Positions 2,864-44,478 of a DNA stretch of 64,000 bases are shown in pieces. How positions within the stretch are numbered: position 1 is the stretch's first letter; each line of letters opens with the position of its first letter. A program made the translations under genes and the position numbers. This DNA is from Solirubrobacteraceae bacterium (GTDB lineage: Bacteria; Actinomycetota; Thermoleophilia; Solirubrobacterales; Solirubrobacteraceae), in assembly GCA_025449845.1 (NCBI GenBank), contig JANWIP010000028.1, positions 62,001 to 126,000 of the forward strand. Reading direction: 5' to 3'. The notes under the pieces are model-generated. The model made no database searches. It saw only the letters and a program-made list of their open reading frames with translations, and had not been told where the DNA came from.

Positions 2864-4135
2864 ATGCTCGCCACCATCCTCAGCGCCTTCCAGGTCGCCG
2901 ACATCCGCAAGAAGCTCGGCTTCACGGCGCTCATGCTTTTGATCTATCGCTTCGGCTCGCACATTCCCGTGCCAGGCGTGAACCTCTCCGCGGTCAACAA
3001 CATCCAGAAGCAGTTCGGGGGCTCCAACATTCTTGGCTTCCTCAACCTCTTCAGCGGCGGCGGTCTCTCGCGCATCGCGCTCTTCGCGCTGGGCATCATG
3101 CCCTACATCACCGCCTCCATCATCCTGCAGCTCCTGCAGGTCGTCGTGCCTTCGCTTGAGAAGCTCTCCAAGGAAGGCGAGGTGGGTCAGCAGCGCATCA
3201 CCCAGTACACCCGCTACCTCACCGTGGGCCTCGCCTTCGCGCAGTCCATCGGCTATGTCTTCCTCTTCCACTCCTTGCAGGCCGGCGCCGGCGAATCGGT
3301 CGTGACCAAGTTCGACGCGCCGCACATCTTCCTGATCGTCATCTGCCTCACCGCCGGCTGCGTGCTGTTGATGTGGATCGGCGAGCTCATCACCCAGCGC
3401 GGCATCGGCAACGGCATCTCGCTGCTGATCTTCTCCTCGATCGTCGCCCGTCTGCCTTCGGGCATCCAGAGCTGGTGGACCAGCCAGGATCAGGTCTTCA
3501 AGGTGATGATGCCTTTCATCGTGCTCGCCGTCGTCGCCGGCATCGTCTTCGTGCAGGAGGGCCAGCGCCGCATCCCCGTGCAGTACGCCAAGCGCGTCAT
3601 CGGCCGGCGCATGACCGAGGGCGGGCAGACCTATCTGCCGCTGCGCGTCAACATGGCCGGCGTCATCCCCGTCATCTTCGCCGCCTCCATCATGGCCTTC
3701 CCGCCCACCGTCGGCCAGCTGATCCACACCAAATGGGCCCAGGGCGTCTCGGACTTCTTCACACCTAACGGCTGGCACTACGTGCTGGGCGAGTCGATCT
3801 TCATCATCATCTTCGCCTACTTCTACACCGCCGTCACCTTCAATCCCGTCGACCAGGCCGACAACCTCAAGAAATACGGCGGCTTCATCCCCGGGGTGCG
3901 TCCCGGCCGTCCCACCGCCGAATTCCTCGACCGCATTCTGGCCCGCCTCACGTTCCCTGGCGCGCTCTTCCTCGCGGCCGTCGCCGCACTGCCAACCATC
4001 CTCATCGCGCGCACTCATGCCAACTTCTTCTTCGGCGGCACTTCCCTACTGATTGTCATTGGTGTGGCATTGGAAACGATGAAGCAGCTTGAGGCTCAGT
4101 TGATGATGCGAAGTTACGAGGGCTTTTTGAAGTAA
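2864..4135 (+). CDS. secY: Preprotein translocase subunit SecY
   Basis: 423 residues with ten predicted hydrophobic segments. It starts MLATILSAFQVADIRKKLGFTALMLLIYRFGSHIPVPGV, the SecY N-terminus, and contains ALGIMPYITASIILQLL and YAKRVIGRR regions; the C-terminal loop holds GFIPGVRPGRPTAEFLDRILARLT. It is the channel of the Sec translocon in the cytoplasmic membrane, with SecE and SecG (not in this window). It sits in the standard place between rplO and adk. Confidence 0.98.
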   Translation: MLATILSAFQVADIRKKLGFTALMLLIYRFGSHIPVPGVNLSAVNNIQKQFGGSNILGFLNLFSGGGLSRIALFALGIMPYITASIILQLLQVVVPSLEKLSKEGEVGQQRITQYTRYLTVGLAFAQSIGYVFLFHSLQAGAGESVVTKFDAPHIFLIVICLTAGCVLLMWIGELITQRGIGNGISLLIFSSIVARLPSGIQSWWTSQDQVFKVMMPFIVLAVVAGIVFVQEGQRRIPVQYAKRVIGRRMTEGGQTYLPLRVNMAGVIPVIFAASIMAFPPTVGQLIHTKWAQGVSDFFTPNGWHYVLGESIFIIIFAYFYTAVTFNPVDQADNLKKYGGFIPGVRPGRPTAEFLDRILARLTFPGALFLAAVAALPTILIARTHANFFFGGTSLLIVIGVALETMKQLEAQLMMRSYEGFLK

Positions 4136-4203
4136 CTCCCGGGGGGTGGTCGGGAGGGGGGTCTGCCACCCTCCCGGGCTAGTGCGAGGGCTTTTTGAAG
4201 TAA
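4117..4203 (+). repeat. 19-bp direct repeat enclosing a stem-loop after secY
   Basis: The last 19 bp of secY (4117-4135, including TAA) are repeated exactly at 4185-4203. Between them lies an inverted repeat, 4151-4160 against 4167-4176 (one mismatch, 6-nt loop), which could act as a terminator or processing hairpin although no T-run follows. The duplicated copy puts a second stop 11 bp before the adk TTG start. Confidence 0.85.
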
Positions 4204-4213
4204 TCTCGGGCAC

Positions 4214-4888
4214 TTGTCCGAGCTCAATCTCATTCTGCTCGGCCCGCCCGGGGCCGGCAAGGGCACTCAGGCCGAGCGTCTGCGGGAGGATTTCGCCTTA
4301 GCCCACATCTCCACCGGCGACATGCTGCGCGCCCAGGTGAGCGAGGGCACCGAACTGGGCAAGCAGGCCCAGAGCTATATGCAGGCCGGCGAACTCGTGC
4401 CCGATGAGGTCATCATCGGCATGATCATGGTGCGCATCGGCGCCGCCGACGCCCGCGACGGCTTCCTGCTCGATGGCTTCCCGCGCAACGAGCAGCAGGC
4501 CGACGCGCTGGGCGAGGCACTCGCGACGCTTGAGCGCAGGCTGCTCGCCGTGCTGCTGATCGAGGTCTCAGACGACGAGGTTGTGCGTCGCCTCGGCGGG
4601 CGCCGCGTATGCACCAAAAGCGGGCACGTCTACCACCTGGAGTTCGACCCCCCCAAGCACGAGGGTATCTGCGATCAGGACGGTTCGCGCCTGATCCAAC
4701 GCGACGACGATCATGAGCAGACCATCCGCAAGCGCCTGGAGGTCTACCACGCGCAGACCGCGCCTTTGATCGAGTACTACGAGAAGGAGGGGCTCTTGCG
4801 CCGCTTCGACGGCCGCCGCCCGCCTAACGAGGTCAACGACCACATCCGCGCCACGCTTGCCACTCTGAGGCTTGAGGACAAGCTATGA
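4214..4888 (+). CDS. adk: Adenylate kinase
   Basis: 224 residues starting at TTG. The P-loop GPPGAGKGT is at residues 10-18, STGDMLRAQV at 33-42, and FLLDGFPRN at 84-92. The lid domain (about 126-165) has Cys133, Ser136, Cys153 and Asp156 at the positions that carry Cys-Cys-Cys-Asp zinc ligands in Gram-positive enzymes, so one Cys is replaced by Ser. The enzyme interconverts ATP+AMP and 2 ADP in the cytoplasm. It follows secY and precedes map as in most bacteria. Confidence 0.97.
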   Translation: MSELNLILLGPPGAGKGTQAERLREDFALAHISTGDMLRAQVSEGTELGKQAQSYMQAGELVPDEVIIGMIMVRIGAADARDGFLLDGFPRNEQQADALGEALATLERRLLAVLLIEVSDDEVVRRLGGRRVCTKSGHVYHLEFDPPKHEGICDQDGSRLIQRDDDHEQTIRKRLEVYHAQTAPLIEYYEKEGLLRRFDGRRPPNEVNDHIRATLATLRLEDKL

Positions 4889-5030
4889 CGTTCGCTGACC
4901 GAAGCCGGGAGACACTCGCCTTTGGCTCGCATCCCCGTTTCGGCCAGCGCAATACTGCGTCCTCACTCGCTCGCGTGCTTAGCACGCCACGCTCGCTGCG
5001 TCCTTGCCTTGCTTGCCCAGCGAACGTCAT
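4885..5030 (+). repeat. Intergenic hairpin element, copy 1
   Basis: A 146-bp element beginning at the adk stop codon. Its ends are a perfect 13-bp inverted repeat (4885-4897 and 5018-5030). The core shares three blocks with the copy at 8665-8800: ctgcgtcctcac (4955-4966), an identical 24-mer (4969-4992) that contains the palindrome GCGTGCT-T-AGCACGC, and ttgccttgcttgccca (5004-5019, one mismatch). No ORF fits it. The ends differ between copies but are self-complementary in each. Confidence 0.8.
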
Positions 5031-5061
5031 GGCGCTCACCTTGCCCGGCTAAGCTCACTAA

Positions 5062-5874
5062 ATGATTGTCAAGAAGACCCCCGCGGAGATCGACAAGATG
5101 GCAGCCGCAGGCGAGATCCTGGTGGCGACCTTGCACATGCTGGAGGGCAAGATCCGTCCTGGCGTTCGTACCCAGGAGCTCGATCAGGCCGCCGAGCGCT
5201 TCATCCGCGCGCGCGGTGCCACGCCCACCTTCAAGGGCTACCGCGGCTTCCCTGGCTCGATCTGCGCCTCACCCAACGCGATGGTCGTGCACGGCATCCC
5301 CGGTCGCTATCGCCTCGGCGGCGGCGACATCATCTCGATCGACGTGGGCGTCACCTATAACGGCTGGGTCGCCGACGCCGCCCGCACCTTTCCCGTCGGA
5401 GACATCGACGCGATATCCGAGAACCTACTGCGCTACACGCGCGAGGCGCTCTACGCGGGCGTTGCGCAGTGCATCGTCGGCCACCGCGTCGGCGACATCT
5501 CGCACGCCATCCAGCAGGTCGCCGAGGGAGCGAACCTCTCCGTTGTGCGCTCGCTCGTGGGCCACGGCGTCGGGCGCAACATGCACGAGGACCCGCAGGT
5601 GCCCAACTACGGTCGCCCTGGCAAGGGTCCCCGCTTGGAGGAGGGCATGGTGTTGGCGATCGAGCCGATGACCACGGCCGGCCGGGCCGCCGTACGCATG
5701 GCGGGCGACAACTGGGCGATCTTCTCCCAGGACGATTCGCCGGCGGCCCACTTCGAGTTCACCGTGGCCGTCACCGCGCAGGGACCCCGGGTCCTCACAC
5801 CGTGGCATCTGAGCGAGCAGCAGCAGGCCCCGGGTGCCGAGCCGCTGGCACAGGGTGCCGCCGGCACCGGCTGA
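5062..5874 (+). CDS. map: Methionine aminopeptidase, type I
   Basis: 270 residues. The metal ligands of the pita-bread fold are recognisable: Asp94 (ISIDVG), Asp105 (VADAART), His168 (GHGVGRNMHED), Glu201 (LAIEPM) and Glu232 (HFEFTV). It removes the N-terminal Met from nascent proteins. The last ~20 residues (EQQQAPGAEPLAQGAAGTG) are an extra low-complexity tail. It lies in the usual adk-map position; infA, usually next, is absent. Confidence 0.97.
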   Translation: MIVKKTPAEIDKMAAAGEILVATLHMLEGKIRPGVRTQELDQAAERFIRARGATPTFKGYRGFPGSICASPNAMVVHGIPGRYRLGGGDIISIDVGVTYNGWVADAARTFPVGDIDAISENLLRYTREALYAGVAQCIVGHRVGDISHAIQQVAEGANLSVVRSLVGHGVGRNMHEDPQVPNYGRPGKGPRLEEGMVLAIEPMTTAGRAAVRMAGDNWAIFSQDDSPAAHFEFTVAVTAQGPRVLTPWHLSEQQQAPGAEPLAQGAAGTG

Positions 5875-6004
5875 GCGAAGTTGCTAGCATCTACTGTCCT
5901 GCTCGCAGGCGCGTCGTTTGGTGCTCGTGAGCAAACTCCACGACTTGGTAGCGGCGGCCGTCCCGGCCTCCAGAGCCGGGTTGCTGGACCAGCCGAAAGG
6001 GATT
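5875..6004 (+). other. map-rpmJ spacer without infA
   Basis: 130 bp, too short for infA (about 220 bp) and without an ORF resembling IF-1. It contains a small GC-rich inverted repeat (ccggcctccagagccgg) and leads directly into rpmJ with GAAAGGG a few bases before the ATG. Confidence 0.6.
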
Positions 6005-6118
6005 ATGAAGGTCAGACCGTCGGTGAAGCCGATGTGCGAGAAGTGCAAGATCATCCGCCGCCACGGCGCGGTTCTCGTCATCTGCCAGAACAAGCGTCAT
6101 AAGCAGCGCCAGGGCTAA
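6005..6118 (+). CDS. rpmJ: 50S ribosomal protein L36
   Basis: 37 residues, [19 protein letters not shown] followed by a C-terminal HKQRQG: the standard L36 length and sequence. It carries the C-x2-C...C...H zinc-ribbon pattern (Cys11, Cys14, Cys27, His32), i.e. the zinc-binding form. It is the smallest large-subunit protein. The ATG at 6005 is preceded by GAAAGGG; it lies just upstream of rpsM. Confidence 0.97.
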
Positions 6119-6129
6119 GGGGTAGCTGG

Positions 6130-6513
6130 GTGGCACGTATCGCTGGGGTCAACTTGCCCCTCAACAAGCGCTCGGAGATCGGGCTTACATACATCTTTGG
6201 CATCGGCCGTTCCATGGCCAACAAGATTCTGAGCGAAGTCAAGGTCAGCCCTGACACCTACGTGCGCGACCTCACCGAGGACGAGGTCTCCAAGCTGCGC
6301 GACGCCATCGACCGCAACCTCACCGTCGAGGGTGACCTACGCCGCGAACGCTCCCAGGACATCAAGCGCCTGCAGGAGATCGGCTGCTACCGCGGCCTGC
6401 GCCATCGCCGCGGCCTGCCCGTCAGAGGTCAGAAAACCAAGACCAATGCCCGCACCCGCAAGGGCCCCAAGCGCATGCAGGTCGCCGGCAAGAAGAAGGC
6501 AGGTAAGAAGTAG
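6130..6513 (+). CDS. rpsM: 30S ribosomal protein S13
   Basis: 127 residues starting at GTG ([26 protein letters not shown]), with [25 protein letters not shown] and a basic C-terminal tail. S13 sits in the head of the small subunit and contacts tRNA and the large subunit. Its stop overlaps the GTG start of rpsK by one base. First gene of the alpha-type cluster here. Confidence 0.98.
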
Positions 6514-6908
6514 TGCCTCCTGCTCCCAAGCGCGCCCGCGGCCGGCGCAAGCCCAAGAAGAACATTCCCATTGGGCAGGCCCACATCAAGACTTCTTTCA
6601 ACAACACCATCGTCTCGCTCACCGACACCCAGGGCAACGTCATCGCCTGGGAGTCCGCCGGCGGCGCTGGCTTCAAGGGTTCGCGCAAGTCCACCCCTTT
6701 CGCCGCTCAGGTCACCGCCGACGCGGCTGCCCGCAAGGGCATCGAGCAGGGACTGCAGAAGGTCGAGGTCTACGTCAAGGGCCCCGGCTCTGGACGCGAG
6801 ACCGCGATTCGCTCGCTGCAGGCTGCCGGCCTTGAGGTGACAGGTGTCAAGGACGTAACGCCTCAGGCGCACAACGGTTGTCGCCCCCGCAAGCGCCGAC
6901 GGGTATAG
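6513..6908 (+). CDS. rpsK: 30S ribosomal protein S11
   Basis: 131 residues from a GTG overlapping the rpsM TAG. Contains [46 protein letters not shown] and the basic C-terminus [12 protein letters not shown]11 lies on the platform of the small subunit near the mRNA exit. 54 bp separate it from rpsD. Confidence 0.98.
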
Positions 6909-6962
6909 GCAGCGCGGCCCACCCCTCCTCCAAACCAAGACGAGAACGAGAACAACAAACCG

Positions 6963-7583
6963 ATGGCCAGAGACACAAGCCCCCAGTGCAAGCAGTGCCG
7001 ACGTGAGGGACAGAAGCTGTTCCTCAAGGGTGAGCGCTGCCTCACAGACAAGTGTGGCGTCGAGCGCCGCGCCTACCCGCCCGGCGAGCACGGTCGCGGG
7101 CGCCAGAAGCAGAGCGAGTACCGCCTGCAGCTGCGCGAGAAGCAGAAGGCCCGTCGCTACTACGGCGTGCTCGAGAAGCAGTTCCATGGCTACTACGAAA
7201 AGGCCTCGCGTCAGCCCGGCATCACCGGCGAGAACCTGCTCGCGCTCTTGGAGTGCCGCTTTGACAACGTGCTCGTGCGCCTCGGCTTCGCCGCCTCGCG
7301 CCGCCAGGCCCGCCAGCTGATCCTCCACGGACACTGGACGATCAACGGCAAGCGCGTAAACATCCCTAGCTATCAGGTGCGCCCTGGCGAGATCATCGCC
7401 ATCAAGGCCGAGACGCCCGCCACGCAGGTGGTCAGGGACGCCACGGAGCTCACCGGACAGATTCCCGCGTGGCTTCAGGCCGATCACGAGTCGCTCACGG
7501 CCAAGGTGCTGCGCAGGCCCGAGCGCCGCGAGGTTGCCGCGCCGGTGCAGGAGCAGCTCATCGTCGAGCTGTACTCGAAGTAA
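6963..7583 (+). CDS. rpsD: 30S ribosomal protein S4
   Basis: 206 residues. The N-terminus has four cysteines (C-x2-C at about 9-12 and C-x4-C near 26-31), the zinc-containing form of S4. The S4 RNA-binding domain is at ~95-160 (CRFDNVLVRLGFAASRRQARQLILHGHWTINGKRV). S4 nucleates 30S assembly and in many bacteria represses its own operon by binding an mRNA pseudoknot; a possible pseudoknot lies just downstream (7602-7634). Confidence 0.98.
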   Translation: MARDTSPQCKQCRREGQKLFLKGERCLTDKCGVERRAYPPGEHGRGRQKQSEYRLQLREKQKARRYYGVLEKQFHGYYEKASRQPGITGENLLALLECRFDNVLVRLGFAASRRQARQLILHGHWTINGKRVNIPSYQVRPGEIIAIKAETPATQVVRDATELTGQIPAWLQADHESLTAKVLRRPERREVAAPVQEQLIVELYSK

Positions 7584-7601
7584 GTAGCGCAAGTTTTGCC
7601 A

Positions 7602-7652
7602 CGCCGCGACTCCTGGGTCGCGGCGCCCCAGGAGCCGGTGCCCAAAGGCGCC
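7602..7652 (+). promoter_or_regulatory. Candidate RNA switch or pseudoknot in rpsD-rpoA spacer
   Basis: Helix 1 is perfect over 9 bp (7602-7610 with 7617-7625). Its 6-nt loop plus flanks also forms a perfect 8-bp helix with sequence just downstream (7610-7617 with 7627-7634). The two can compete or, through the loop, form an H-type pseudoknot. A third hairpin (7637-7642 with 7647-7652, loop caaa) follows, then the leader of rpoA. There is no T-run. Ribosomal protein S4 or a terminator role are guesses from position. Confidence 0.5.
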
Positions 7653-7683
7653 GGGAGGACACCCCAACGACGTTAGGACCTTG

Positions 7684-8664
7684 ATGCTCGACTTCCAAAT
7701 CCCCCGCATCTCAAGCGAGTCCGTGGAGCACAACCGCGGTACCTTCATCATCGAGCCGCTCGATCGAGGCTTCGGCTACACCTTCGGCAACTCGCTGCGT
7801 CGCGTTTTGCTCTCTTCGCTGGCCGGCGCTGCCGTCACCAGCGTGCGCATCGAGGGGGTGGCGCATGAGTTCTCCACCATCCCAGGTGTCAAGGAGGACG
7901 TCACCGACATCGTTCTGAACCTCAAGGGTGTCGTCTGCCGCATGCACTCCGACGCCACCGAGGTCGAGGCTCCGCTCGTCGTCACCGGTCCCGGCGACAT
8001 CACCGCCAAGGACATCGATCTGCCTGCTGGCGTTGAGATCCTCAATCCAGACGTGCACATTGCCACGCTTGAGAAGAAGACCAAGCTAGAGCTGTACATG
8101 ACCATTGGCCGCGGCCGTGGCTACCGTCCGGCCGAGGAGAACAAGTCGCCCGATCAGCCGATTGGCGTGATCCCGATCGACTCCATCTTCTCGCCTGTGC
8201 GTCGTGTTGCCTACGCCGTTGAGCAGGCTCGTGTCGGGCAGAAGACCGACTTCGACAAGCTCACCTTGGACATCGAGACCGACGGCTCGATCGAGCCGCA
8301 GGCCGCTTTGCGCGAGGCTGCCGAGCTCTTGATCTCTCAGCTGGCGATCTTCACTGATGCCGACCGTATCCAGGAGCTGCGTGCTTCACCGGGCGGTCAG
8401 CTTGACGGGCATGGGCTTGCCGTTGGCGGCCCGGGTGCGCCTGCCGGTGCTCTGCAGGGTGAGGAGTACGGCATTCTCATCGAGGAGCTTGAGCTGGGCG
8501 TGCGCTCCTACAACTGCCTCAAGCGCGCTGGCATCCAGACCGTCGGTGATCTCATCTCCAAGTCTGAGGGTGAGCTTAACGCGATCCCCAACTTCGGCAA
8601 AAAGTCGATCGATGAGGTCATCGAGACGCTCGAAGCGCGGGGCATGTCGCTGCGCCAGGACTGA
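7684..8664 (+). CDS. rpoA: RNA polymerase subunit alpha
   Basis: 326 residues. The N-terminal assembly domain (about 1-230) includes NRGTFIIEPLDRGFGYTFGNSLRRVLLSSL and the KEDVTDIVLNLKG region; the C-terminal domain (about 255-326) has ELGVRSYNCLKRAGIQTVGDL and NFGKKSIDEV, which bind UP elements and activators. I chose ATG 7684 over TTG 7681 because AGGA at 7675-7678 is then 5 bp away. It lies between rpsD and rplQ as expected. Confidence 0.97.
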   Translation: MLDFQIPRISSESVEHNRGTFIIEPLDRGFGYTFGNSLRRVLLSSLAGAAVTSVRIEGVAHEFSTIPGVKEDVTDIVLNLKGVVCRMHSDATEVEAPLVVTGPGDITAKDIDLPAGVEILNPDVHIATLEKKTKLELYMTIGRGRGYRPAEENKSPDQPIGVIPIDSIFSPVRRVAYAVEQARVGQKTDFDKLTLDIETDGSIEPQAALREAAELLISQLAIFTDADRIQELRASPGGQLDGHGLAVGGPGAPAGALQGEEYGILIEELELGVRSYNCLKRAGIQTVGDLISKSEGELNAIPNFGKKSIDEVIETLEARGMSLRQD

Positions 8665-8800
8665 CTAGGGGGGCCGCTGAGCGGCGCGAGGCTGCGTCCT
8701 CACCCTCCGGGTACAGGCGGTCTAGCTCGCGTGCTTAGCACGCCACGCGTGGTGGGTGGGCCTCCGATCATTTGCCTCGCTTGCCCATCGACCCCCCTAG
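8665..8800 (+). repeat. Intergenic hairpin element, copy 2
   Basis: A 136-bp element starting at the base after the rpoA stop. Its ends are the perfect 9-bp inverted repeat CTAGGGGGG (8665-8673) and CCCCCCTAG (8792-8800). The core blocks match copy 1: ctgcgtcctcac (8692-8703), the identical 24-mer (8725-8748), and ttgcctcgcttgccca (8772-8787). The terminal arms share no sequence with copy 1, yet pair with each other in both. No ORF; rplQ starts 20 bp later. Confidence 0.8.
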
Positions 8801-8820
8801 CCGGCTAGACTCCAGAACTC

Positions 8821-9174
8821 ATGAGACATCAGAAGACCCGCAACAAGCTCAGCCGCTCGGCCTCGCATCGCAAGGCGCTGCTCATGAACCTCATGAAGGA
8901 GGTTCTCGAGCACGAGCGCATCACTACTACCGAGGCCAAGGCCAAGGCGGTCAAGCCTGAGCTTGAGAAGCTCATCACGCTTGGTAAGCGTGGGGACCTG
9001 CACGCGCGTCGTCAGGCGCTCTCGGCTCTCTCGCAGGACAAGTTCGCCGTCTACCGGCTGTTCGAGGAGGTGGCCCCCCGTTACAAGGATCGTCCTGGGG
9101 GCTACACGCGCATCCTCAAGCTCGGGCCGCGTCGCTCTGACGCGACCGAGATGGTCTTCCTAGAGCTGGTCTGA
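8821..9174 (+). CDS. rplQ: 50S ribosomal protein L17
   Basis: 117 residues: MRHQKTRNKLSRSASHRKALLMNLMKEVLEHERITTTEAKAK is the L17 N-terminus and GGYTRILKLGPRRSDATEMVFLELV its end. L17 lies at the base of the large subunit near the exit tunnel. It is separated from rpoA by the hairpin element rather than the usual short spacer. Confidence 0.98.
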   Translation: MRHQKTRNKLSRSASHRKALLMNLMKEVLEHERITTTEAKAKAVKPELEKLITLGKRGDLHARRQALSALSQDKFAVYRLFEEVAPRYKDRPGGYTRILKLGPRRSDATEMVFLELV

Positions 9175-9200
9175 GTCGCGGCCGGGCCGCCCGCCGCGAC
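9175..9200 (+). terminator. GC-rich hairpin after rplQ
   Basis: GTCGCGGC (9175-9182) pairs perfectly with GCCGCGAC (9193-9200) over a 10-nt loop, immediately after the rplQ stop. No T-run follows, so it may be a weak or T-less terminator at the end of the ribosomal cluster. Confidence 0.5.
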
Positions 9201-9262
9201 GGTGGGGCGGGGGTGCTGGTGGGCCGAGGGTGCTGCTCAACAGTGTTGGCGGGATCTCGGGC

Positions 9263-9580
9263 CTACCGGGTAGGTAACGTCGACGCGGCGCGTTCGAGAT
9301 CGCCGCGGTCGATCACACGCTCTACGAGAAAGCCGGCTTGCTCCTGGGTGCTCAGAGCCTGCACCTCATCCTCGGTAAGGGGACGGTAGAGAACGCGGTA
9401 CTCGCCCCGTCGAGCGCGCAGCCAGGGAGCGCGTCCAGTCAGAGGCTTGATGTCAAGGTTCGCCGGCTGGGGCTCGGCGGCGAGTTCATTCTCAAGTAGG
9501 TCCAGCAGTCGCCGGCGGCTCTTGTGATCGATACGACGCAGGTCACGCAGAGCGCGCTTGGACAACTCGACGCGGTACAT
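9263..9580 (-). CDS. RelE/ParE-family toxin
   Basis: 105 residues: MYRVELSKRALRDLRRIDHKSRRRLLDLLENEL... LTGRAPWLRARRGEYRVLYRPL. The basic helix, the central L-T-G-R and the R-x-G-x-Y-R-V-L-Y strand are the pattern of RelE-type mRNA interferases. It lies 20 bp downstream of a Phd/YefM-like antitoxin, the usual antitoxin-first order. Target and activity are inferred from the family. Confidence 0.85.
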   Translation of the reverse strand: MYRVELSKRALRDLRRIDHKSRRRLLDLLENELAAEPQPANLDIKPLTGRAPWLRARRGEYRVLYRPLTEDEVQALSTQEQAGFLVERVIDRGDLERAASTLPTR

Positions 9581-9944: not shown

Positions 9945-10742
9945 ATGGTCACCAAGCTAAAGCTCGAATACGACGGCACCAACTTTGCCGGCTGGGCGCG
10001 GCAGCCGGGGTTGCGCAGCGTGGAGGAGGAGCTGGAGCGGGTCCTGCAGACCATTCTCGGCGAGCCGTTGACGCTGACTGTTGCCGGCCGCACTGATCGT
10101 GGGGTGCATGCGTGGGAACAGGTGGCCGGCTATGCGCACGAGGCGTTGGACCCGACCCGCCTGAACACGCTGCTGCCCGACGATCTGGCGGTGCTCAGCT
10201 CCGAACCAGCCCCGGAGGGATGGGACGCGCGTCGCAGTGCTACCAGTAGGACCTACTGCTATCGCATCCTTACTCGCCGCACGCGCGGCGTGCTCATGCG
10301 TGGCACTGCCTTGTGGTGGCCTCGTGCTCTGGACCGTGAGGCTTTGGATGAGTGCGCCAAGGCGCTTCTGGGTCGTCACGACTTCACCGCCTTCACTCCT
10401 ACCGAGACCGACCACGTGCGCTTCGTGCGCGATGTGCTGCGTGCGCAGTGGCAGTCAGATGGTGATCTGCTCGAGTTCTGGATCGAGGCCGACACCTTCA
10501 TGCGCCACATGAATCGCGTCATCGTCGGTTCGATGTTGGAGGTCGCCTCCGGGCGCAGCTCGCTGGATGACTTTGTGCGCCTGCTCACGGGGCGGCCTCG
10601 CTGCGAGGCCGGACCGACGGCTCCGCCGCATGGTCTGGCGCTGGCCTCGGTTGCCTACGGGGACGACGCCTCTGGGGATGATGCCTCTGGGGATGATGCC
10701 TCGGGGGATGATGCCTCGGGGGATGACGCCTCGGGGGAATGA
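9945..10742 (+). CDS. truA: tRNA pseudouridine synthase A
   Basis: 265 residues. Start chosen at ATG 9945 (MVTKLKLEYDGTNFAGWARQPG); the longer reading frame upstream overlaps the divergent promoter region. The catalytic Asp is in AGRTDRGVHAW. It makes pseudouridine at tRNA positions 38-40. The gene follows rplQ in many bacteria; here the toxin-antitoxin pair intervenes. The last ~27 residues are a Gly-Asp-Asp-Ala-Ser repeat unrelated to TruA (see the repeat entry). Confidence 0.95.
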   Translation: MVTKLKLEYDGTNFAGWARQPGLRSVEEELERVLQTILGEPLTLTVAGRTDRGVHAWEQVAGYAHEALDPTRLNTLLPDDLAVLSSEPAPEGWDARRSATSRTYCYRILTRRTRGVLMRGTALWWPRALDREALDECAKALLGRHDFTAFTPTETDHVRFVRDVLRAQWQSDGDLLEFWIEADTFMRHMNRVIVGSMLEVASGRSSLDDFVRLLTGRPRCEAGPTAPPHGLALASVAYGDDASGDDASGDDASGDDASGDDASGE

Positions 10743-17358: not shown

Positions 17359-18384
17359 ATGCGCGTGAGCACAAGGACAACGAGGACTACAAGGACAACG
17401 AGGAGTGCCGGACGCCGGGGGTGTCTGGTGGCGCTCGGCACCATCGGCGTGTTTGCCGGCGGCGCGTCGGTGTACGCGTTGAGCACGCAGGGAGGCGGCT
17501 CAGGGGTGCCGGCGCCGAGGATCGTGGCGAAGCCGGCGAAAGGAACCTCGCTGACCTCGGCGCGGTTTGCCTATACCGATCGCTGGCGGCGCGCGAGCTT
17601 TCTGTGCTCACTGGACCGCTCGCGTTTCTCCCGCTGCGCGAGTCCGACGCGCTATCCGGGCCCGCTCGCTCCCGGCTGGCATACATTTCGGGTGAGGGCG
17701 TTGGGCTCCTATGGCGCTCGCGGGCGCAGCCGCGTCACGTCATACAACTGGCTGATCGACCTGCAGCCGCCGGCGCCCTATATCGCCAGGCACCCCAGCG
17801 AGCCGACGAGCGAAAAGTCGGCAACATTCGCTTTCACCGATGGCGAGCCAAATGTCTCGTTTCAGTGCAGCATCGACAGGCGGGCGTGGCGGAAGTGCAA
17901 AAGTCCAATCGCCTACCGCGGGCTCGGTCAGAGCGAGCACCTGTTCCGCGTGCGCGCGATCGACCCGCCCGCAATCCCGAGTGCCGTCTCGCAATTTGAC
18001 TGGCACGTGACGACGCAGCAGGCAGTGCAGAACTTCTCGATCGGCAGCGGGGAAATCGAAGGCGGCCCGCTCTATCCGGGCGCCCCACCGCAGGCGATTC
18101 GGGTAATTCTCACCAACCCCAATGGGGTATCGATTTTCGTGACAGCTCTGACGGTGACGGTGCCGAGCGGGCCCCCCGGCTGTGACAGTGCGACCAACCT
18201 CAGCCTCGCCCAGTCCGATGTGTCAGGCACCACCCCGGTCGAGATCCCGGCCCACGGCTCCGTGACGCTGCCTGCGCAGGGCCGCTCGGCGCCGACCATC
18301 CAGCTGTTGAACCTGCCGGTGAACCAGGATGCCTGCCAGAACGCCCAGCTGCCGCTCAGCATGACCGGGAGCGCGCACTCGTGA
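17359..18384 (+). CDS. Membrane-anchored protein with two Cys-rich Ig-like repeats
   Basis: 341 residues. A Thr/Arg-rich n-region (RTTRTTRTTR) precedes a hydrophobic segment (22-42). Two repeats of about 90 residues follow, each with F-x-CSLD/CSID-R...C-x-SP...Y...L...H-x-FRVRA, a beta-sandwich unit common in actinobacterial surface proteins. The last ~110 residues match the domain of the preceding 154-residue protein and end NQDACQNAQLPLSMTGSA. It is 25 bp after that gene and overlaps the next start by 4 bp, so the three are one operon. Function unknown. Confidence 0.75.
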   Translation: MRVSTRTTRTTRTTRSAGRRGCLVALGTIGVFAGGASVYALSTQGGGSGVPAPRIVAKPAKGTSLTSARFAYTDRWRRASFLCSLDRSRFSRCASPTRYPGPLAPGWHTFRVRALGSYGARGRSRVTSYNWLIDLQPPAPYIARHPSEPTSEKSATFAFTDGEPNVSFQCSIDRRAWRKCKSPIAYRGLGQSEHLFRVRAIDPPAIPSAVSQFDWHVTTQQAVQNFSIGSGEIEGGPLYPGAPPQAIRVILTNPNGVSIFVTALTVTVPSGPPGCDSATNLSLAQSDVSGTTPVEIPAHGSVTLPAQGRSAPTIQLLNLPVNQDACQNAQLPLSMTGSAHS

Positions 18385-18475
18385 GACGCCTGCCGGCAAG
18401 CCGGGAGCGCACGCGTGAGATGCCTGGCCGGCATGCCCGGGAGCGCGCACGCGTGAGATGCCTGGCCGGCAAGCT
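18366..18475 (+). repeat. Triplicated stop/start junction
   Basis: A unit of about 38-40 bp (gagcgcgcacgcgtgag, then atgcctggccggca) occurs three times from 18366 to 18475. The first copy contains the stop of the 341-residue gene and the overlapping GTG start of the 1630-residue gene; later copies supply further possible starts (ATG 18420, GTG 18453) in the same frame. Confidence 0.8.
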
Positions 18476-21400
18476 CCTCACGAGAACCGGCATGTTGATG
18501 CTGCTCGTGCTGGCGCTCAGCGCCGCGGTGCTGGCGTACCTGACGAGCACCGGCGCGGGCAGCGCATCGGCGGGGGTGACGGTGCTCGGGGCCACGAGCA
18601 TCACCTCAGCGACGCCGGGCGCGGGCACGGTCGCGCTCAGCTGGAGCGCTGTCAGCCCGCCGGGCGCGGGAGCGGTCTCCTACTACGTCAGCCGTGACGG
18701 CGGCGCTCCGGAAGGCAGCTGTCCGAGCTCCACCGCGACTTCGACGGTGACGAGCTGCAGCGACACGAATGTCTCGCTGGGGACCCACGAATACAGAGTT
18801 ACGGCGGTGTGGCGCTCGTGGACGACGACGAGCGCACCGATGTCGGCCGTGGTCGCCTTCGGGCCGGCCACCCATTTCATTCTCAGCGCCGTGAGCACGA
18901 CGCCGACGGCGGGGGTCGCTGACAATCTGACGATTACCGCCAAGGACGAAGGCGACAACACGGTCGCCACCTACGCCGGGCTGCACAGCCTGACGTTTGC
19001 CGGTGCGGGCAATGGTCCGACGGGGACGCATCCGACGGTGTCGAGCAGCACGGGTGTTGTGACGAACTTTGGTACCGCGACGGCGATCTCATTTGTCAAC
19101 GGCGTGGCCGTGGTGGCCGGCGCGAACAACGGTGTAATGACCCTCTACAAGGCGGAAACGGCGCTAGTCACGGTGACCGATGGCACCCTCAGCAATGGTG
19201 CGGGCTTGTCGGTGACGGTGGCCGCGGCGGCGGCGGCGAGCTTTTCGATGACGGCGGTGAGTACCGCGGTGACGGCGGGTGAAGCGGATAATCTGACGAT
19301 CACGGCGCTGGATGCGTTTGGCAACGTCGCCATTACGTATGTCGGCTCGCACAGCCTTACCTTCGGGGGTGCTGCCAATAGCCCCAACGCCACTCATCCG
19401 ACGGTGAGCACCAGCGCTGGAGTGGCGACGAACTTCGGGACGGCGACGGCGATCACATTCACCAATGGCGTGGCGACGGTGGCGGGTGCGAATAATGGTG
19501 TGATGAGGTTGTATAAGGCGGAAACGGCGAGTGTGACGGTGGCGGCGGGTGCGGTGACCAACGGCGCGGGTCTGTCGGTGACGGTGAGTGTCGCGGCGGC
19601 GTCGAGTTTGGGACTGGTGGCGGCGACGGTCACGCCGACGGCGGGTGCGGGTGACAGTCTGACGATCACGGCGAAGGATGTGTATGGGAATACGATCACG
19701 AGCTACACGGGCTCGCATAATTTGACGTTCGGGGGGCCGCATGTGATTGGGGCGTTCACTCCGACGGTGTCGGATGGCTCGGGTGTGGCGACGAGTGTTG
19801 GCACGGTGACGGCGATTACGTTCACGAATGGTGTGGCGAGTGTGTCGGGGGCGAGTAATGGTGTGATGACGTTGTATAAGGCTGAGGCGGTGAGTGTGAC
19901 GGTAACGGATGGGACGCTTAGCAATGGTGCTGGGTTGGCGGTGACGGTGGGTCCGGCGGCGGCCGCGAGCCTGTCCTTGGCAGCTGCCGGCACCACCGCG
20001 GGGGTGGCGGATAATCTGACGGTGACGGTGAAGGATGCGTATGGCAATACGGTCACGAGTTACGCGGGCCTTCATAATTTGACGTTTGAAGGTGCGGGTA
20101 ATGGTCCGACGGGGACGCATCCGTCGGTGTCGAGCAGCACTGGGGTGGTGACGAACTTTGGTACGGCGACGGCGATTTCGTTCGTGAGTGGTGTGGCGAC
20201 CGTTGCCGGTGCGAACAACGGTGTGATGAAGCTCTATAAGGCGGAAACGGCGCTGGTCACGGTGACGGATGGCACGCTGAGCAACGGTGGGGGCTTGTCG
20301 GTGGCGGTGGCTGCGGCGGCGGCGGCGAGCTTTTCGATGACGGCGGCGTCCACCACCCCGACGGCGGGCGAAGCGGACAATTTGACGATCACCGCACTCG
20401 ATGCGTTCGGCAACGTCGCCATTACGTATGTCGGCTCGCATAGTCTCACTTTTGGGGGCGCTGCCAACAGCCCCAATGCGACTCATCCGACGGTGAGCAC
20501 TAGTGCGGGTGTGGCGACGAACTTTGGGACGGCCACGGCGATCACGTTCACGAATGGCGTCGCGACGGTGGCGGGTGGGAATAATGGTGTGATGAGGTTG
20601 TATAAGGCGGAAACGGCGAGTGTGACGGTGGCGGCGGGTGCGGTGACGAACGGTGCGGGCTTGTCGGTGACGGTGAGTGTCGCGGCGGCGTCGAGCTTGG
20701 GGTTGGCGGCGGCGACGGTCACGCCGACCGCAGGCGCGAGCGATAATCTGACGATCACGGCGAAGGATGCGTATGGGAATACGATCACGAGTTACACGGG
20801 CTCGCATAATTTGACGTTTGGGGGGCCGCATGTGATTGGGCCGTTCACTCCGACGGTGTCGGATGGCTCGGGTGTGGCGACGAGTGTTGGCACGGTGACG
20901 GCGATTACGTTCACGAATGGTGTGGCGAGTGTGTCGGGAGCGAGTAATGGTGTGATGACGTTGTATAAGGCTGAGGCGGTGAGTGTGACGGTGACGGATG
21001 GGACGCTTTCCAATGGTGCTGGGTTGGCGGTGACGGTGGGTCCGGCGGCGGCGGCGAATCTGTCTCTGGCGGCGGTGAGTACGACGCCGACGGCGGGGGT
21101 GGCGGATAATCTGACGGTGACGGTGAGGGATGCGTATGGCAATACGGTCACGAGTTATGCGGGTCTGCACAATTTGACGTTTGAAGGTGCGGGTAATGGT
21201 CCGACGGGGACGCATCCGTCGGTGTCGAGCAGCACTGGGGTGGTGACGAACTTTGGTACGGCGACGGCGATCTCGTTCGTGAGTGGTGTGGCCGTGGTGG
21301 CTGGTGCGAACAACGGCGTGATGAAGCTCTACAAGGCGGAAACGGCGCTGGTCACGGTGACGGATGGCACGCTCAACAACGGTGCGGGCTTGTCGGTGAC

Positions 21401-23273
21401 GGTGGCCGCGGCGGCGGCGGCTAGCTTTTCGATGACGGCGGTGAGTACTGCGGTGACGGCGGGTGAAGCGGACAATCTGACGATCACGGCACTCGATGCG
21501 TTCGGCAATATCGCCATCACGTATGTCGGCTCGCACAACCTGACGTTTGGCGGTGCGGGGACGAGCGTGGGCGGGAACCATCCGACGGTGAGCACCAGTG
21601 CGGGTGTGGCGACGAACTTCGCGACGGCCACGGCGATCACCTTCACAAATGGTGTGGCGACGGTGGCGGGTGCGAACAACGGTGTGATGAGGCTCTACAA
21701 GGCGGAAACGGCGAGCGTGACGGTGGCGGCAGGTGCGGTGACGAACGGCGCGGGCCTGTCGGTGACGGTGAGCGTCGCGGCGGCGTCGAGCTTGGGGTTG
21801 GCGGCGGCGACGGTCACGCCGACGGCGGGTGCGGGTGACAGTCTGACGATCACGGCGAAGGATGTGTATGGGAATACGATCACGAGTTACACGGGCTCGC
21901 ATAATTTGACGTTTGGGGGGCCGCATGTGATTGGAGCGTTCACCCCCACCGTGACGGACGGCTCGGGTGTGGCGACGAACGTTGGCACGGCAACAGCGAT
22001 CACGTTCACCAATGGGGTGGCGAGCGTGTCGGGGGCGAGCAACGGTGTGATGACGTTGTATAAGGCTGAGGCGGTGAGTGTGACGGTCACCGATGGGACG
22101 CTGAGCAACGGTGCGGGCCTGGCGGTCACCGTGGGAGCCGCCAGCGCGACGAGCCTGTCCCTGGCAGCTGCCAGCATCACGCCGACCGCGGGGGTGGCCG
22201 ACAATCTGATGATCACGGCGAAGGATGCCTACGGCAACACCGCCACCAGCTACGCGGGTCTGCACAATTTGACCTTCGAAGGCGCCGGAAACAGCCCTAA
22301 CGCCACCCACCCGACGGTGTCGAGCAGCACGGGCGTGGTGACAAACTTCGGCACGGCGACGGCGATCTCGTTCGTGGCCGGTGTGACGACGGTGGCGGGC
22401 GCGAACAACGGCGTGATGAAGCTCTATAAGCCCGAAACGGCGCTGATTACGGTGAGCGACGGCACGATCAACAACGGTGCGGGCCTGTCGGTAACGGTGG
22501 CCGCGGCGGCGGCGGCGAGCTTCTCGATGACCGCGGCGTCCATCACGCCGACGGCGGGCGAAGCGGACAATCTGACGATCACGGCGCTCGACGCCTTCAG
22601 CAATGTCGCCATCACGTATGTCGGCTCACACAACCTCACCTTCGGGGGCGCCGCCAACAGTCCCAACGTGATCCACCCGACGGTGAGCAGCAGCACGGGT
22701 GTCGCGACGAACTTCGCGACCGCCGAGGCGATCACGTTCACCAACGGTGTTGCGACCGTGGCGGGCGCGAACAACGGCGTGATGAGGCTCTACAAGGCGG
22801 AAACGGCGAGTGTGACGGTGGCCTCGGGCGCGGTGACCAACGGCGCGGGCCTGTCGGTGACGGTGGCAAGCGCCCCAGCGAGTCGCCTGGCATGGACCCA
22901 CGTGACGGTGAGCGCTGGCTCTCTGAGCGCGCCGTGCCTCTTCACATGCACGGTCACAACCCTCGGCAACGCCGGCACGTTCACCGCCAATGTGAGCGTC
23001 GCGGACACTTACGGCAACACGGTCAGCGGTCTGGAAGCTGGCTACACCGTAACCGTCTCCACCCCTTCAAGCGGCGGTGGCTCCGGCGGAGCCTTCACCG
23101 AACCGGCAGCCGGCACATCCCTCACGCTGTCCATCAGCAGCGTGGGCCCGGCGGACTCGACGCTCCAGTTCGTATTCAAGGCCCAGACGGGCGCCTGGGT
23201 GTCCGACACGATGACGGCCCAGACACTGACCGGCACCAGTTACACGAGCGCGACTGCGACGCTGAATAAGTAG
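18381..23273 (+). CDS. Giant repeat surface protein
   Basis: 1630 residues from GTG 18381 (alternatives ATG 18420 or GTG 18453, the last giving a normal signal-peptide n-region). After the hydrophobic segment comes YLTSTGAGSASAGV, the same leader type as upstream, then a fibronectin III-like domain (about 62-160). Eleven ~121-residue repeats follow, each with TAG-x-A-DNLTITA-x-DA-x-GN, a beta-sandwich of the invasin/bacterial-Ig type, in an A-B-C order. A unique ~130-residue C-terminal domain with a Cys pair (APCLFTCTV) ends the protein. No sortase motif is visible. Adhesin or stalk role is inferred. Confidence 0.85.
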   Translation: MRRLPASRERTREMPGRHARERARVRCLAGKLLTRTGMLMLLVLALSAAVLAYLTSTGAGSASAGVTVLGATSITSATPGAGTVALSWSAVSPPGAGAVSYYVSRDGGAPEGSCPSSTATSTVTSCSDTNVSLGTHEYRVTAVWRSWTTTSAPMSAVVAFGPATHFILSAVSTTPTAGVADNLTITAKDEGDNTVATYAGLHSLTFAGAGNGPTGTHPTVSSSTGVVTNFGTATAISFVNGVAVVAGANNGVMTLYKAETALVTVTDGTLSNGAGLSVTVAAAAAASFSMTAVSTAVTAGEADNLTITALDAFGNVAITYVGSHSLTFGGAANSPNATHPTVSTSAGVATNFGTATAITFTNGVATVAGANNGVMRLYKAETASVTVAAGAVTNGAGLSVTVSVAAASSLGLVAATVTPTAGAGDSLTITAKDVYGNTITSYTGSHNLTFGGPHVIGAFTPTVSDGSGVATSVGTVTAITFTNGVASVSGASNGVMTLYKAEAVSVTVTDGTLSNGAGLAVTVGPAAAASLSLAAAGTTAGVADNLTVTVKDAYGNTVTSYAGLHNLTFEGAGNGPTGTHPSVSSSTGVVTNFGTATAISFVSGVATVAGANNGVMKLYKAETALVTVTDGTLSNGGGLSVAVAAAAAASFSMTAASTTPTAGEADNLTITALDAFGNVAITYVGSHSLTFGGAANSPNATHPTVSTSAGVATNFGTATAITFTNGVATVAGGNNGVMRLYKAETASVTVAAGAVTNGAGLSVTVSVAAASSLGLAAATVTPTAGASDNLTITAKDAYGNTITSYTGSHNLTFGGPHVIGPFTPTVSDGSGVATSVGTVTAITFTNGVASVSGASNGVMTLYKAEAVSVTVTDGTLSNGAGLAVTVGPAAAANLSLAAVSTTPTAGVADNLTVTVRDAYGNTVTSYAGLHNLTFEGAGNGPTGTHPSVSSSTGVVTNFGTATAISFVSGVAVVAGANNGVMKLYKAETALVTVTDGTLNNGAGLSVTVAAAAAASFSMTAVSTAVTAGEADNLTITALDAFGNIAITYVGSHNLTFGGAGTSVGGNHPTVSTSAGVATNFATATAITFTNGVATVAGANNGVMRLYKAETASVTVAAGAVTNGAGLSVTVSVAAASSLGLAAATVTPTAGAGDSLTITAKDVYGNTITSYTGSHNLTFGGPHVIGAFTPTVTDGSGVATNVGTATAITFTNGVASVSGASNGVMTLYKAEAVSVTVTDGTLSNGAGLAVTVGAASATSLSLAAASITPTAGVADNLMITAKDAYGNTATSYAGLHNLTFEGAGNSPNATHPTVSSSTGVVTNFGTATAISFVAGVTTVAGANNGVMKLYKPETALITVSDGTINNGAGLSVTVAAAAAASFSMTAASITPTAGEADNLTITALDAFSNVAITYVGSHNLTFGGAANSPNVIHPTVSSSTGVATNFATAEAITFTNGVATVAGANNGVMRLYKAETASVTVASGAVTNGAGLSVTVASAPASRLAWTHVTVSAGSLSAPCLFTCTVTTLGNAGTFTANVSVADTYGNTVSGLEAGYTVTVSTPSSGGGSGGAFTEPAAGTSLTLSISSVGPADSTLQFVFKAQTGAWVSDTMTAQTLTGTSYTSATATLNK
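18871..22880 (+). repeat. Eleven ~364-bp repeats in a three-unit super-repeat
   Basis: The conserved DNLTIT codons recur near 18918, 19284, 19648, 20008, 20371, 20738, 21101, 21467, 21834, 22195 and 22560, a period of 360-367 bp. Types alternate A-B-C-A-B-C-A-B-C-A-B, so the duplicated unit is ~1.09 kb. Type A has the SYAGLHNLTF motif, B has ITYVGSH, C has GPHVIG. Central copies are nearly identical at DNA level and use more GTG/ACG/TTG codons than the outer ones. Confidence 0.9.
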
Positions 23274-28693: not shown

Positions 28694-28801
28694 CGAAGCT
28701 GCCCGGAGCCACCGAGCTGCCCGGAGCCACCGAGCTGCCCGGAGCCACCGAGCTGCCCGGAGCCACCGAGCTGCCCAGAGCCACCGAGCTGCCCAGAGCC
28801 G
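28694..28801 (+). repeat. 18-bp tandem repeat, six copies
   Basis: Six copies of cgagctgcccggagccac (first copy cgaagctg, last two with ccagagcc) start at the base after the TGA of the LPG-synthase-like gene. No gene is supported in it; a minus-strand reading frame encodes only an AlaProGlySerSerVal repeat. Confidence 0.95.
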
Positions 28802-43424: not shown

Positions 43425-43720
43425 CCCTGCAGCTCCCTCAGCTCGTCCACGTCGATCGGCAGCTGGCGGCGGTAGATCGCCACGATCATGCCTAGGCCGA
43501 TGCACACCTCGCAGGCGGCGACCGTCATCACGATCAGCGCCAAGATCTGGCCGTCGCCGTTGCCCCACATGCGCGAGAACGCGATCAGTGCGAGGTTCGC
43601 GCCGTTCAGCATCAGCTCCAGGCACAGCAGCAGCACCAGGGGGTTGCGGCGGGTCATCACGCCTACGGCGCCGAGCGTGAAGACGATCGCGGAGACCGCC
43701 AGGTACCAGGCGATGCTCAC
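43421..43720 (-). CDS. nuoK: NADH-quinone oxidoreductase subunit K
   Basis: 99 residues, three membrane helices, the usual length. LVLLLCLELMLNGANLALIAF carries the conserved membrane Glu of the proton path; AACEVCIGLGMIVAIYRR carries the second. Overlaps nuoJ and nuoL by 4 bp each. Confidence 0.97.
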   Translation of the reverse strand: MSIAWYLAVSAIVFTLGAVGVMTRRNPLVLLLCLELMLNGANLALIAFSRMWGNGDGQILALIVMTVAACEVCIGLGMIVAIYRRQLPIDVDELRELQG

Positions 43721-44478
43721 CAGCCGCCGTCCTTTGGTCCCGCGCTCACCTTGGGGCGCTCGGCGCCGTCACGCGCGCCTGTGTCCTCCGTGGTGCGTCC
43801 TTTCGCAGACTCGATGCCGTTCTCGACGCCTGCCTGGGCTGCCGCGAACGGCAGCCCCGCCACGCCCTCGGCCATCGTGCCCGTGCCCTGCGGGCGCAGC
43901 AGATCTAGCGGCGTCAGGATCTCGCGTTCGTCCTCTTCGTCCTCGCTGACCCCTCCGCGGCGTCGTGCCAGCACCACCGCGCCGACGGCCGCGATCAGCA
44001 GCAGGAAGGAGGCCACCTCGAACGCCAGCAGGAAGCGCGTCAGCAGCAGCTGGCCAATATAGGCGGGGGTGCCATAGGTGCGCGGACCGGGTGCATAGCC
44101 GGCGCCTTGGCTGTTGATCGCCTCAAGGCCTGTGCCGAGCAGCGCGATGAACAGCTCTACCAGCAGCGCCGCGCCTAGCACCGCCGCGCCTAAGCGCAGG
44201 CTGGAGCCGCCCGGGCCGCGCAGGCGGGCGCCGAGGGACTGTTCCTGGTCGCCTACGTAAGCGACGACGAACACGTACAGGACCATTACCGCGCCGGCGT
44301 ACACGACCACCTGCACCGCGGCTACGAACTCTGCTCGCAGCAGCAGGAACAGCAGCGCCAGCGAGATCAGGTGTGTCACCAGCGCCAACACGCTGTAGAA
44401 CGGGTCGCGCAGGCTTACCACGCCGACCGCGCCGGCGATCGCCCCGAGGGCCGCGATGAAGAACATGACCGTGCTCAT
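43717..44478 (-). CDS. nuoJ: NADH-quinone oxidoreductase subunit J
   Basis: 253 residues. The five N-terminal helices are typical (DPFYSVLALVTHLISLALLFLLLRAEFVAAVQVVVYAGAVMVLYVFVVAY, with the pi-bulge region near YAGAVMVLYVFVV). The C-terminal ~80 residues are an extra charged, low-complexity cytoplasmic tail. 7 bp after nuoI and overlapping nuoK by 4 bp. Confidence 0.95.
   Translation of the reverse strand: MSTVMFFIAALGAIAGAVGVVSLRDPFYSVLALVTHLISLALLFLLLRAEFVAAVQVVVYAGAVMVLYVFVVAYVGDQEQSLGARLRGPGGSSLRLGAAVLGAALLVELFIALLGTGLEAINSQGAGYAPGPRTYGTPAYIGQLLLTRFLLAFEVASFLLLIAAVGAVVLARRRGGVSEDEEDEREILTPLDLLRPQGTGTMAEGVAGLPFAAAQAGVENGIESAKGRTTEDTGARDGAERPKVSAGPKDGGW

Follow-up and report, generated by a model that had tools for sequence, protein, structure and literature searches.

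A dispersed, probably mobile non-coding hairpin at gene 3' ends in Actinomycetota, with an outer stem that may be an inverted copy of its target

Background

The nearest published system that we found to the element described here is that of the repetitive extragenic palindromes (REP/REPIN). In the sections of PMC3733652 used here, REPs are dispersed extragenic palindromes of 20-40 bp whose stems are family-wide and which end on one side in an unpaired tag; neighbouring genes often take their TAG stop codon from GTAG REPs, CGTC REPs have no known transposase, and the phyla named for CGTC repeats do not include Actinobacteria. We analysed a stretch of 64,000 nt from a Solirubrobacteraceae bacterium (hereafter the window; C28:62001-126000 of the 3.27 Mb genome G000), which holds two copies, at 4885-5030 and 8665-8800, of a non-coding element that is some 100 bases long and apparently not yet described. 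Like REPs, it is a dispersed extragenic palindrome found at stop codons, but its outer stem is specific to each copy while its core is conserved, and no link to RAYT was seen.

The element also shares traits with other systems. Integron attC sites follow stop codons in sense orientation, only one of their strands folds, and their stem sequence is free while the structure is conserved. A folded bottom strand and a position after a stop codon are both found here, but attC as usually described is conserved in boxes at both ends and variable in between, opposite to the present arrangement. Mycobacterial interspersed repetitive units (MIRU), intergenic repeats of actinobacteria that are reported to sit, in fixed orientation, at stop/start junctions, are set apart by their usual description as direct repeats with small reading frames and not hairpins with site-specific arms. 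Miniature inverted-repeat transposable elements (MITEs) are short, non-coding and multicopy with inverted termini; their terminal repeats are shared and they make direct target duplications, whereas those of the element differ by copy and mirror the target where tested. Finally, template-switch (quasipalindrome) mutations likewise leave perfect inverted copies beside a hairpin, but they are a mutation process, whereas the element forms a dispersed family in which the core is conserved and the stem length is sharp.

Results

A hairpin under structural constraint

Read on the strand opposite the upstream gene, the element consists of a terminal stem (P1), AA opposite GCC, a 7-bp second stem (P2), a double internal loop, rich in G·A, in which isolated pairs are conserved, and a tip (P3) formed by a 6-bp hairpin with a 3-base loop. 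This layout of 101 columns fits 74 copies, of which 17 with fewer than 10/16 stem pairs were dropped and the remaining 57 aligned without gaps. In the alignment 93.3% of the cells were paired, as opposed to 72.7% in shuffled and 26-45% in slid controls, and the covariation score of 0.514 compares with 0.130 for shuffled and 0.061-0.102 for slid copies, with 23 pairs changing on both sides. These covariation figures lean on the filter of at least 10/16 pairs, on which the mismatch count given below and a test of 47 linker-anchored copies with no pairing filter provide a check. In the latter, positions 1-15 were 68-100% Watson-Crick paired, and positions 16, 17, 18 and 19 reached 74, 60, 49 and 26%.

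The length of the stem to its first double mismatch was 17 bp in 35 copies, 18 bp in 17 and 19 bp in 8 (60/81 in all), while 15 stems were shorter than 17 bp and 6 longer than 19 bp. The stem-length and strand analyses of these 81 copies pick the best 17-nt offset and are biased toward 17; the fixed anchor puts the end at 15-18. In the same copies the outer stem carries 0.01-0.71 bit of information per position (positions 3-17), hence its sequence is not shared between copies. Scoring the pairing with gaps, 81/113 copies outscored all of about 15 swapped partners and 32/113 did not. Beyond P1 the flanks of this short form are unpaired (14.5 vs 14.0 with swapped partners, 80 copies). We conclude that the terminal stem of about 17 bp, the 7-bp stem, the G·A-rich internal loops and the tip hairpin are under structural constraint. 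An earlier note on the window had read the two copies as either a structured RNA or a mobile hairpin whose complementary flanks are copied or selected, and the covariation together with a preferred folding strand bears out that the molecule is structured.

The folding strand

A relaxed core pattern found 91 copies, 77 of them with at least 11/16 Watson-Crick P1 pairs. On the strand of the upstream gene the P1 mismatches of these 77 copies were A·C (73), G·T (12), C·T or T·C (39) and A·G or G·A (4). On the complementary strand they appear as the tolerated types G·T (G·U) and G·A, hence it is the strand opposite the upstream gene that folds. The minus strand was more stable in 78/81 copies, by a mean of 6.4 kcal/mol. 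The wobbles cluster at stem positions 8-12. Stem segments downstream of the stop codon (22:3) and entire stems located beyond it (19:1) show a strong mismatch asymmetry; where the stem overlaps the stop codon or coding letters (13:6 and 6:2), the asymmetry is weak and not significant. The folded molecule may be either RNA or single-stranded DNA. The antisense folding strand, the stem end near 17 bp and the family-wide link to stop codons, with its controls, go beyond what the earlier note had described.

Association with stop codons and neighbouring genes

The calls of upstream genes rely on open frames and third-position G+C rather than on annotation, within a stretch that starts 30 nt beyond the stem and ends at the core; 77/91 copies had such a gene and 14/91 had none. 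In 72/91 copies the stop codon fell within the stem or no more than 5 nt away from it on the outside, whereas the same rule applied at +150, -150 and -300 nt gave 0/90, 4/87 and 4/83. Upstream stops were found 13-14 pairs from the inner stem end in 25 copies, at pairs 1-4 in 14 copies, where the stem then spans 11-14 nt of coding sequence, and elsewhere in 38/77. All three stop codons serve; if the element is aimed at gene ends, it may thus be guided by translation termination or transcription and not by the DNA sequence. On the opposite strand, too, a called gene ends at the right arm in 28/91 copies, so that convergent genes can meet in one element. At one locus (L080) a stem change removes the stop seen in a relative (L070), and the frame reads on into the element and stops in its right half.

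With a stricter neighbour script the upstream gene was on the same strand in 50/81 copies, on the opposite strand in 6/81 and absent in 25/81. The gene following the 50 upstream-called copies was on the same strand in 26, convergent in 14 and not called in 10; as the baseline of one genome is 124:90, a preference for convergent genes was rejected. We also rejected tRNA 3' ends as targets, since ARAGORN at default settings found no gene at any element in 51 loci; beside the element of L021 lies a tRNA-like stretch which scored 22.3 bits against an Rfam cut-off of 29 and was called as tRNA-Asp only at a relaxed ARAGORN setting. Ten upstream proteins were compared with Pfam and eight were assigned a family, among them S20, glycine dehydrogenase subunit 2, AICARFT/IMPCHase, a bifunctional nuclease and a five-region sigma-70 factor.

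Occupancy of sites and mirrored arms

Occupancy differs between species at five sites. Both window sites were empty in the relatives compared (0/24 at rpoA-rplQ, 0/17 at adk-map), and the covariance model finds nothing there; three weak matches in the relatives' stretches (L179, L198 and L196; E 0.04-0.57) lie away from both. The gcvPB site was occupied in 1/30 loci, the rnhB site in 3/30 loci and the rpsK-rpsD site in 1/26 genomes, the own genome among those compared. In the carrier (G003; L174/L181) the element stands between rpsK and rpsD, where several relatives have a 1-3 nt gap or overlapping codons.

The left arm of the gcvPB copy (G086), CGTCAGCCTCTCTGACC, consists of the codons for RQPL, the stop and CC, and the right arm complements it at 17/17 positions. 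The RQPL* end is common to three relatives with an empty site (L262, L267 and L280). In two genomes (G092 and G095) the same flanking genes lie 12 and 6 nt apart with neither an element nor an inverted copy, the downstream proteins being identical at 166/210 and 163/212 positions, and no direct target-site duplication was seen by eye at this one site against two empty relatives. This comparison shows that the host-side arm at gcvPB is native, including the stop codon, and that the other arm is its reverse complement, which agrees with the mobile hairpin with copied flanks that the earlier note had considered. The rnhB and rpsK sites are consistent with the same arrangement. The copies of three species at rnhB have arms that follow their own host letters, with some mismatches, and the convergent gene may supply part of the right arm.

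Two copies at different genes (L008 and L026) have about 11 nt of inner arm in common, and their outer letters, including a differing last codon, are each mirrored, so that in these copies the element carries part of the stem and the outer part mirrors the target. At shared sites, for example at a sigma-factor gene (L049, L202 and L227) and in L010/L024, the arms differ outright, which fits in-situ compensation or re-insertion. Insertion into the loop of a pre-existing terminator was rejected at gcvPB and rpsK because the empty relatives have no room for the arms; it was not seen at the two window sites.

Distribution of the family

A covariance model (R1) was used to scan genomes. It gave 8 matches in the own genome, the weakest at E 0.0024, and matches in at least 120/232 genomes and at least 38/54 genera of Solirubrobacterales and in at least 18/396 genomes of an Actinomycetota sample; the order and phylum counts are lower bounds, with 17 and 10 candidates scored per genome respectively. 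The relatives are represented by one genome per species, many of them metagenome-derived. Five genomes scored in depth held 8-42 matches each, and four high-copy genomes (G053, G054, G096 and G213) 20-42 copies each. The core with at most 3 mismatches was present in 20/61 genomes (the own genome and 60 relatives). The exact pattern was found in 99 stretches of a genome contig collection, 90 of which are labelled Solirubrobacterales/Solirubrobacteraceae, Thermoleophilia, Actinomycetota or Actinobacteria and 9 otherwise (Atopobiaceae 4, Pseudonocardia 2, Chlamydiae 2, bacterium 1); with duplicates removed these gave 117 copies. The two window copies are therefore members of a dispersed family with pairing ends, and the observation of paired, copy-specific ends stands; the outcome that the earlier note had named as its refutation, two copies in all and unpaired ends in relatives, is not what was found.

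The curated covariance models of Rfam matched none of the elements, either within window 4000-9500 or at five loci, viral contigs did not match the exact pattern, and plasmids and phages gave no match to one 101-base query. Among the papers listed by searches of a largely open-access literature, none named the element family, in line with the remark in the earlier note that no named family fits.

In more distant Actinomycetota the same core lies within a longer stem in 13/15 loci, usually ending about 29 nt beyond P1. These long stems differ between copies yet pair: 13 loci score at least 27, and the mean over all 15 is 28.3 vs 13.7 with swapped partners. L316 and L325 have no longer stem; L339 was skipped, and the related pair L319/L332 pairs well when swapped too. 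Mismatches in the long stems are again mainly A·C (52 vs 12 G·T). In 6 long-form loci a called stop codon lies 0-11 nt outside the longer stem, and the other loci have no called upstream gene.

Some variants were also recorded. L136 in the own genome (C20:183275-183334) is a 60-nt remnant of P1 and P2 without the core (41 bits) and a possible decay product. L098 and L035 hold tandem element cores, 105 and 70 bp apart. In an Atopobiaceae-labelled metagenome-assembled genome, core-bearing palindromes (L036, L064, L066 and L119) have arms that look alike between copies, perhaps a REP-like cousin.

The two copies in the window

Both copies lie in the ribosomal-protein operon region of the window, at exactly the coordinates given by the earlier note, and for both the folding strand is minus. 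Copy 1 (4885-5030; R1 72.7 bits, E 4.6e-11) occupies the gap between two genes which we take from their proteins to be adk and map. On the plus strand it has an outer left arm of 13 nt at 4885-4897, which includes the adk stop TGA (4886-4888), a secondary hairpin of 46 nt, identified by its fold and inserted within the left arm at 4898-4943, the left side of P2 at 4949-4955, placed by register with the family alignment A2, the tip hairpin P3 (GCGTGC-TTA-GCACGC) at 4973-4987, the right side of P2 with a TT linker at 5006-5014, and a right arm at 5015-5030 whose outer 13 nt complement the left arm and the stop codon. Copy 2 (8665-8800; R1 35.6 bits, E 0.0024) stands between genes presumed on the same basis to be rpoA and rplQ. 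Its left arm of 18 nt (8665-8682, plus strand) directly follows the rpoA stop TGA (8662-8664), and is followed by the left side of P2 (GCGAGGC, 8686-8692), P3 (8729-8743), the right side of P2 (GCCTCGC, 8774-8780) and the right arm (8783-8800). On the minus strand of copy 2, 17/18 positions pair when wobbles are counted, and one is A·G. The statement that both copies begin at a stop codon was thus right as to the link and needs refinement as to position: the stop is within the stem in copy 1 and immediately outside it in copy 2.

The 24-mer GCTCGCGTGCTTAGCACGCCACGC, which holds P3, recurs letter for letter at 4969-4992 and 8725-8748 (0 expected from shuffled sequence), and the copies also have CTGCGTCCTCAC and TTGCCT(T/C)GCTTGCCCA in common, confirming the core blocks reported before. 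An insert, CACCCTCCGGGTACAGGCG, found inside the core at window 8694-8728 and in L135 marks a local subfamily. The arms, unlike between the copies as the earlier note had said, are perfectly self-complementary over 13 bp in copy 1 (4885-4897/5018-5030) and 9 bp in copy 2 (8665-8673/8792-8800). At the spacing of the element the whole window holds 53 inverted pairs of 9 bp (51.8 expected) and 2 of 13 bp (0.45 expected), so the arms are unremarkable by themselves and it is the family that demonstrates their pairing. The second perfect 13-bp inverted repeat, at 43665-43769, lacks the core 24-mer.

Elsewhere in the window, a reading frame of 1630 aa at 18381-23273 (+) contains 11 copies of a repeat of about 363 bp and would encode a large repeat-domain protein. 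Tandem repeats are found at 1786-2070 (39-base unit), 10652-10741 (15), 28697-28800 (18) and 57936-58055 (21).

Discussion

We suggest that the element is a dispersed, probably mobile non-coding hairpin of Actinomycetota, which would insert where genes end, at the stop codon, in a single orientation with respect to the gene upstream, and whose outer stem would be an inverted copy of the target. We put the probability of this reading at roughly one half. As a mechanism we propose that the stable hairpin in the template would stop the polymerase during replication, and that the halted nascent leading strand would fold back, copy the gene-side arm and so write the other arm by a template switch. 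This copying would take place at insertion or soon after, and the element may spread through a folded single-stranded intermediate handled by some enzyme.

Two papers bear on this mechanism. Through template switching, sequence close by is copied as its reverse complement, and a single event can produce perfect stems (PMC8794818). In E. coli template switching at imperfect palindromes is strand-biased: all eleven hits of a drug screen raised the leading-strand reporter, and only one raised the lagging-strand reporter (PMC7202029). In G053 the folding strand is on the leading-strand template in 25/27 copies, whereas 134/235 sampled genes are co-oriented (p = 6e-5). It should be noted that this test used one contig with dnaA at base 420 and a terminus assumed mid-chromosome, one copy lying 24 kb past the terminus.

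Several observations weigh against the proposal. The replication bias was seen in that genome only, a hand count in G128 giving 5/8 copies. Simple template switching leaves the stem end near 17 bp unexplained; this sharp length and the spread of the element, which fold-back copying does not explain either, may call for a further protein. No mobilising enzyme was found in a partner search that covered Y1_Tnp and RVT_1, not other recombinase families. Y1_Tnp occurs in 29/232 and RVT_1 in 58/232 genomes, and neither is present in the own genome or in the four high-copy genomes. Other carriers do hold a partner candidate (G007, for example, has both), but RAYT/Y1 and reverse-transcriptase partners were rejected as showing no association with carriers. 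The wobble asymmetry points to selection on the folded strand, hence to a host or mobility function that our model lacks. The inner arm of about 11 nt found at different genes means that copying may cover the outer letters only, and where a convergent gene ends at the right arm, as at rnhB, some of its letters may be native to that gene.

The likeliest of the alternatives is a structured antisense RNA, which we consider unlikely, and clearly less probable than a mobile hairpin. The minus strand would be transcribed and fold, the RNA would act where the upstream gene ends or once it has been processed, and its arms would covary by compensatory mutation and selection. It would account for the strong covariation, the G·U-type wobbles on the minus strand and the related sites with different yet pairing arms. 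However, no position within 60 nt on either side of 80 copies exceeds 0.37 bit, so there is no conserved flank signal; copies inside apparent operons such as rpoA-rplQ would presumably need their own promoter; the orientation of the next gene is near baseline; and the species-specific 17/17 complement to native gcvPB codons would be hard to reach stepwise. The tip loops, moreover, are mostly of 3 bases (by eye), and such loops are more typical of DNA hairpins.

We find it improbable, and less convincing than the antisense RNA, that the element is a passive by-product, in which the conserved core spreads by ordinary recombination and template switching during replication rewrites the flanks into a perfect inverted repeat, with no dedicated mobility or function. 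That template switching can create and maintain hairpin arms (PMC8794818 and PMC7202029, in the parts cited), the leading-strand orientation in G053 and the lack of significant mismatch asymmetry over the stop codon and the coding part are all in its favour, but the asymmetry in the non-coding part of the stem, the sharp stem end and the 20-42 copies in some genomes are not what it predicts. A transcription terminator or mRNA 3'-end stabiliser for the upstream transcript would suit a hairpin mostly just after the gene with its base at the stop codon, but is very unlikely, as the stem on the mRNA strand has A·C and pyrimidine mismatches instead of G·U, the energies favour the opposite strand, at least 6 T in the 12 nt after the stem (either strand) occur in 1/81 copies, and copies lie inside ribosomal-protein operons.

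Going further than the mobile hairpin itself, we would venture only tentatively, and hold it to be the less likely outcome, that this is a mobile element of a new kind, directed to the stop codons with which genes end, whose insertion makes an inverted and not a direct target duplication, with the stem completed to about 17 bp, or about 46 bp in the longer form.

The copies of a dispersed element normally share their ends, whereas here the ends differ and at gcvPB mirror the host. If the inverted copying is true, it would represent a mechanism of transposition or mutation unseen in the families compared here, and the element would be a natural record of template switching across many genomes. 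Further, the stop-codon rule allows a direct test of whether mobility is linked to gene ends, and it would aid the annotation of gene ends in Thermoleophilia and other Actinomycetota.

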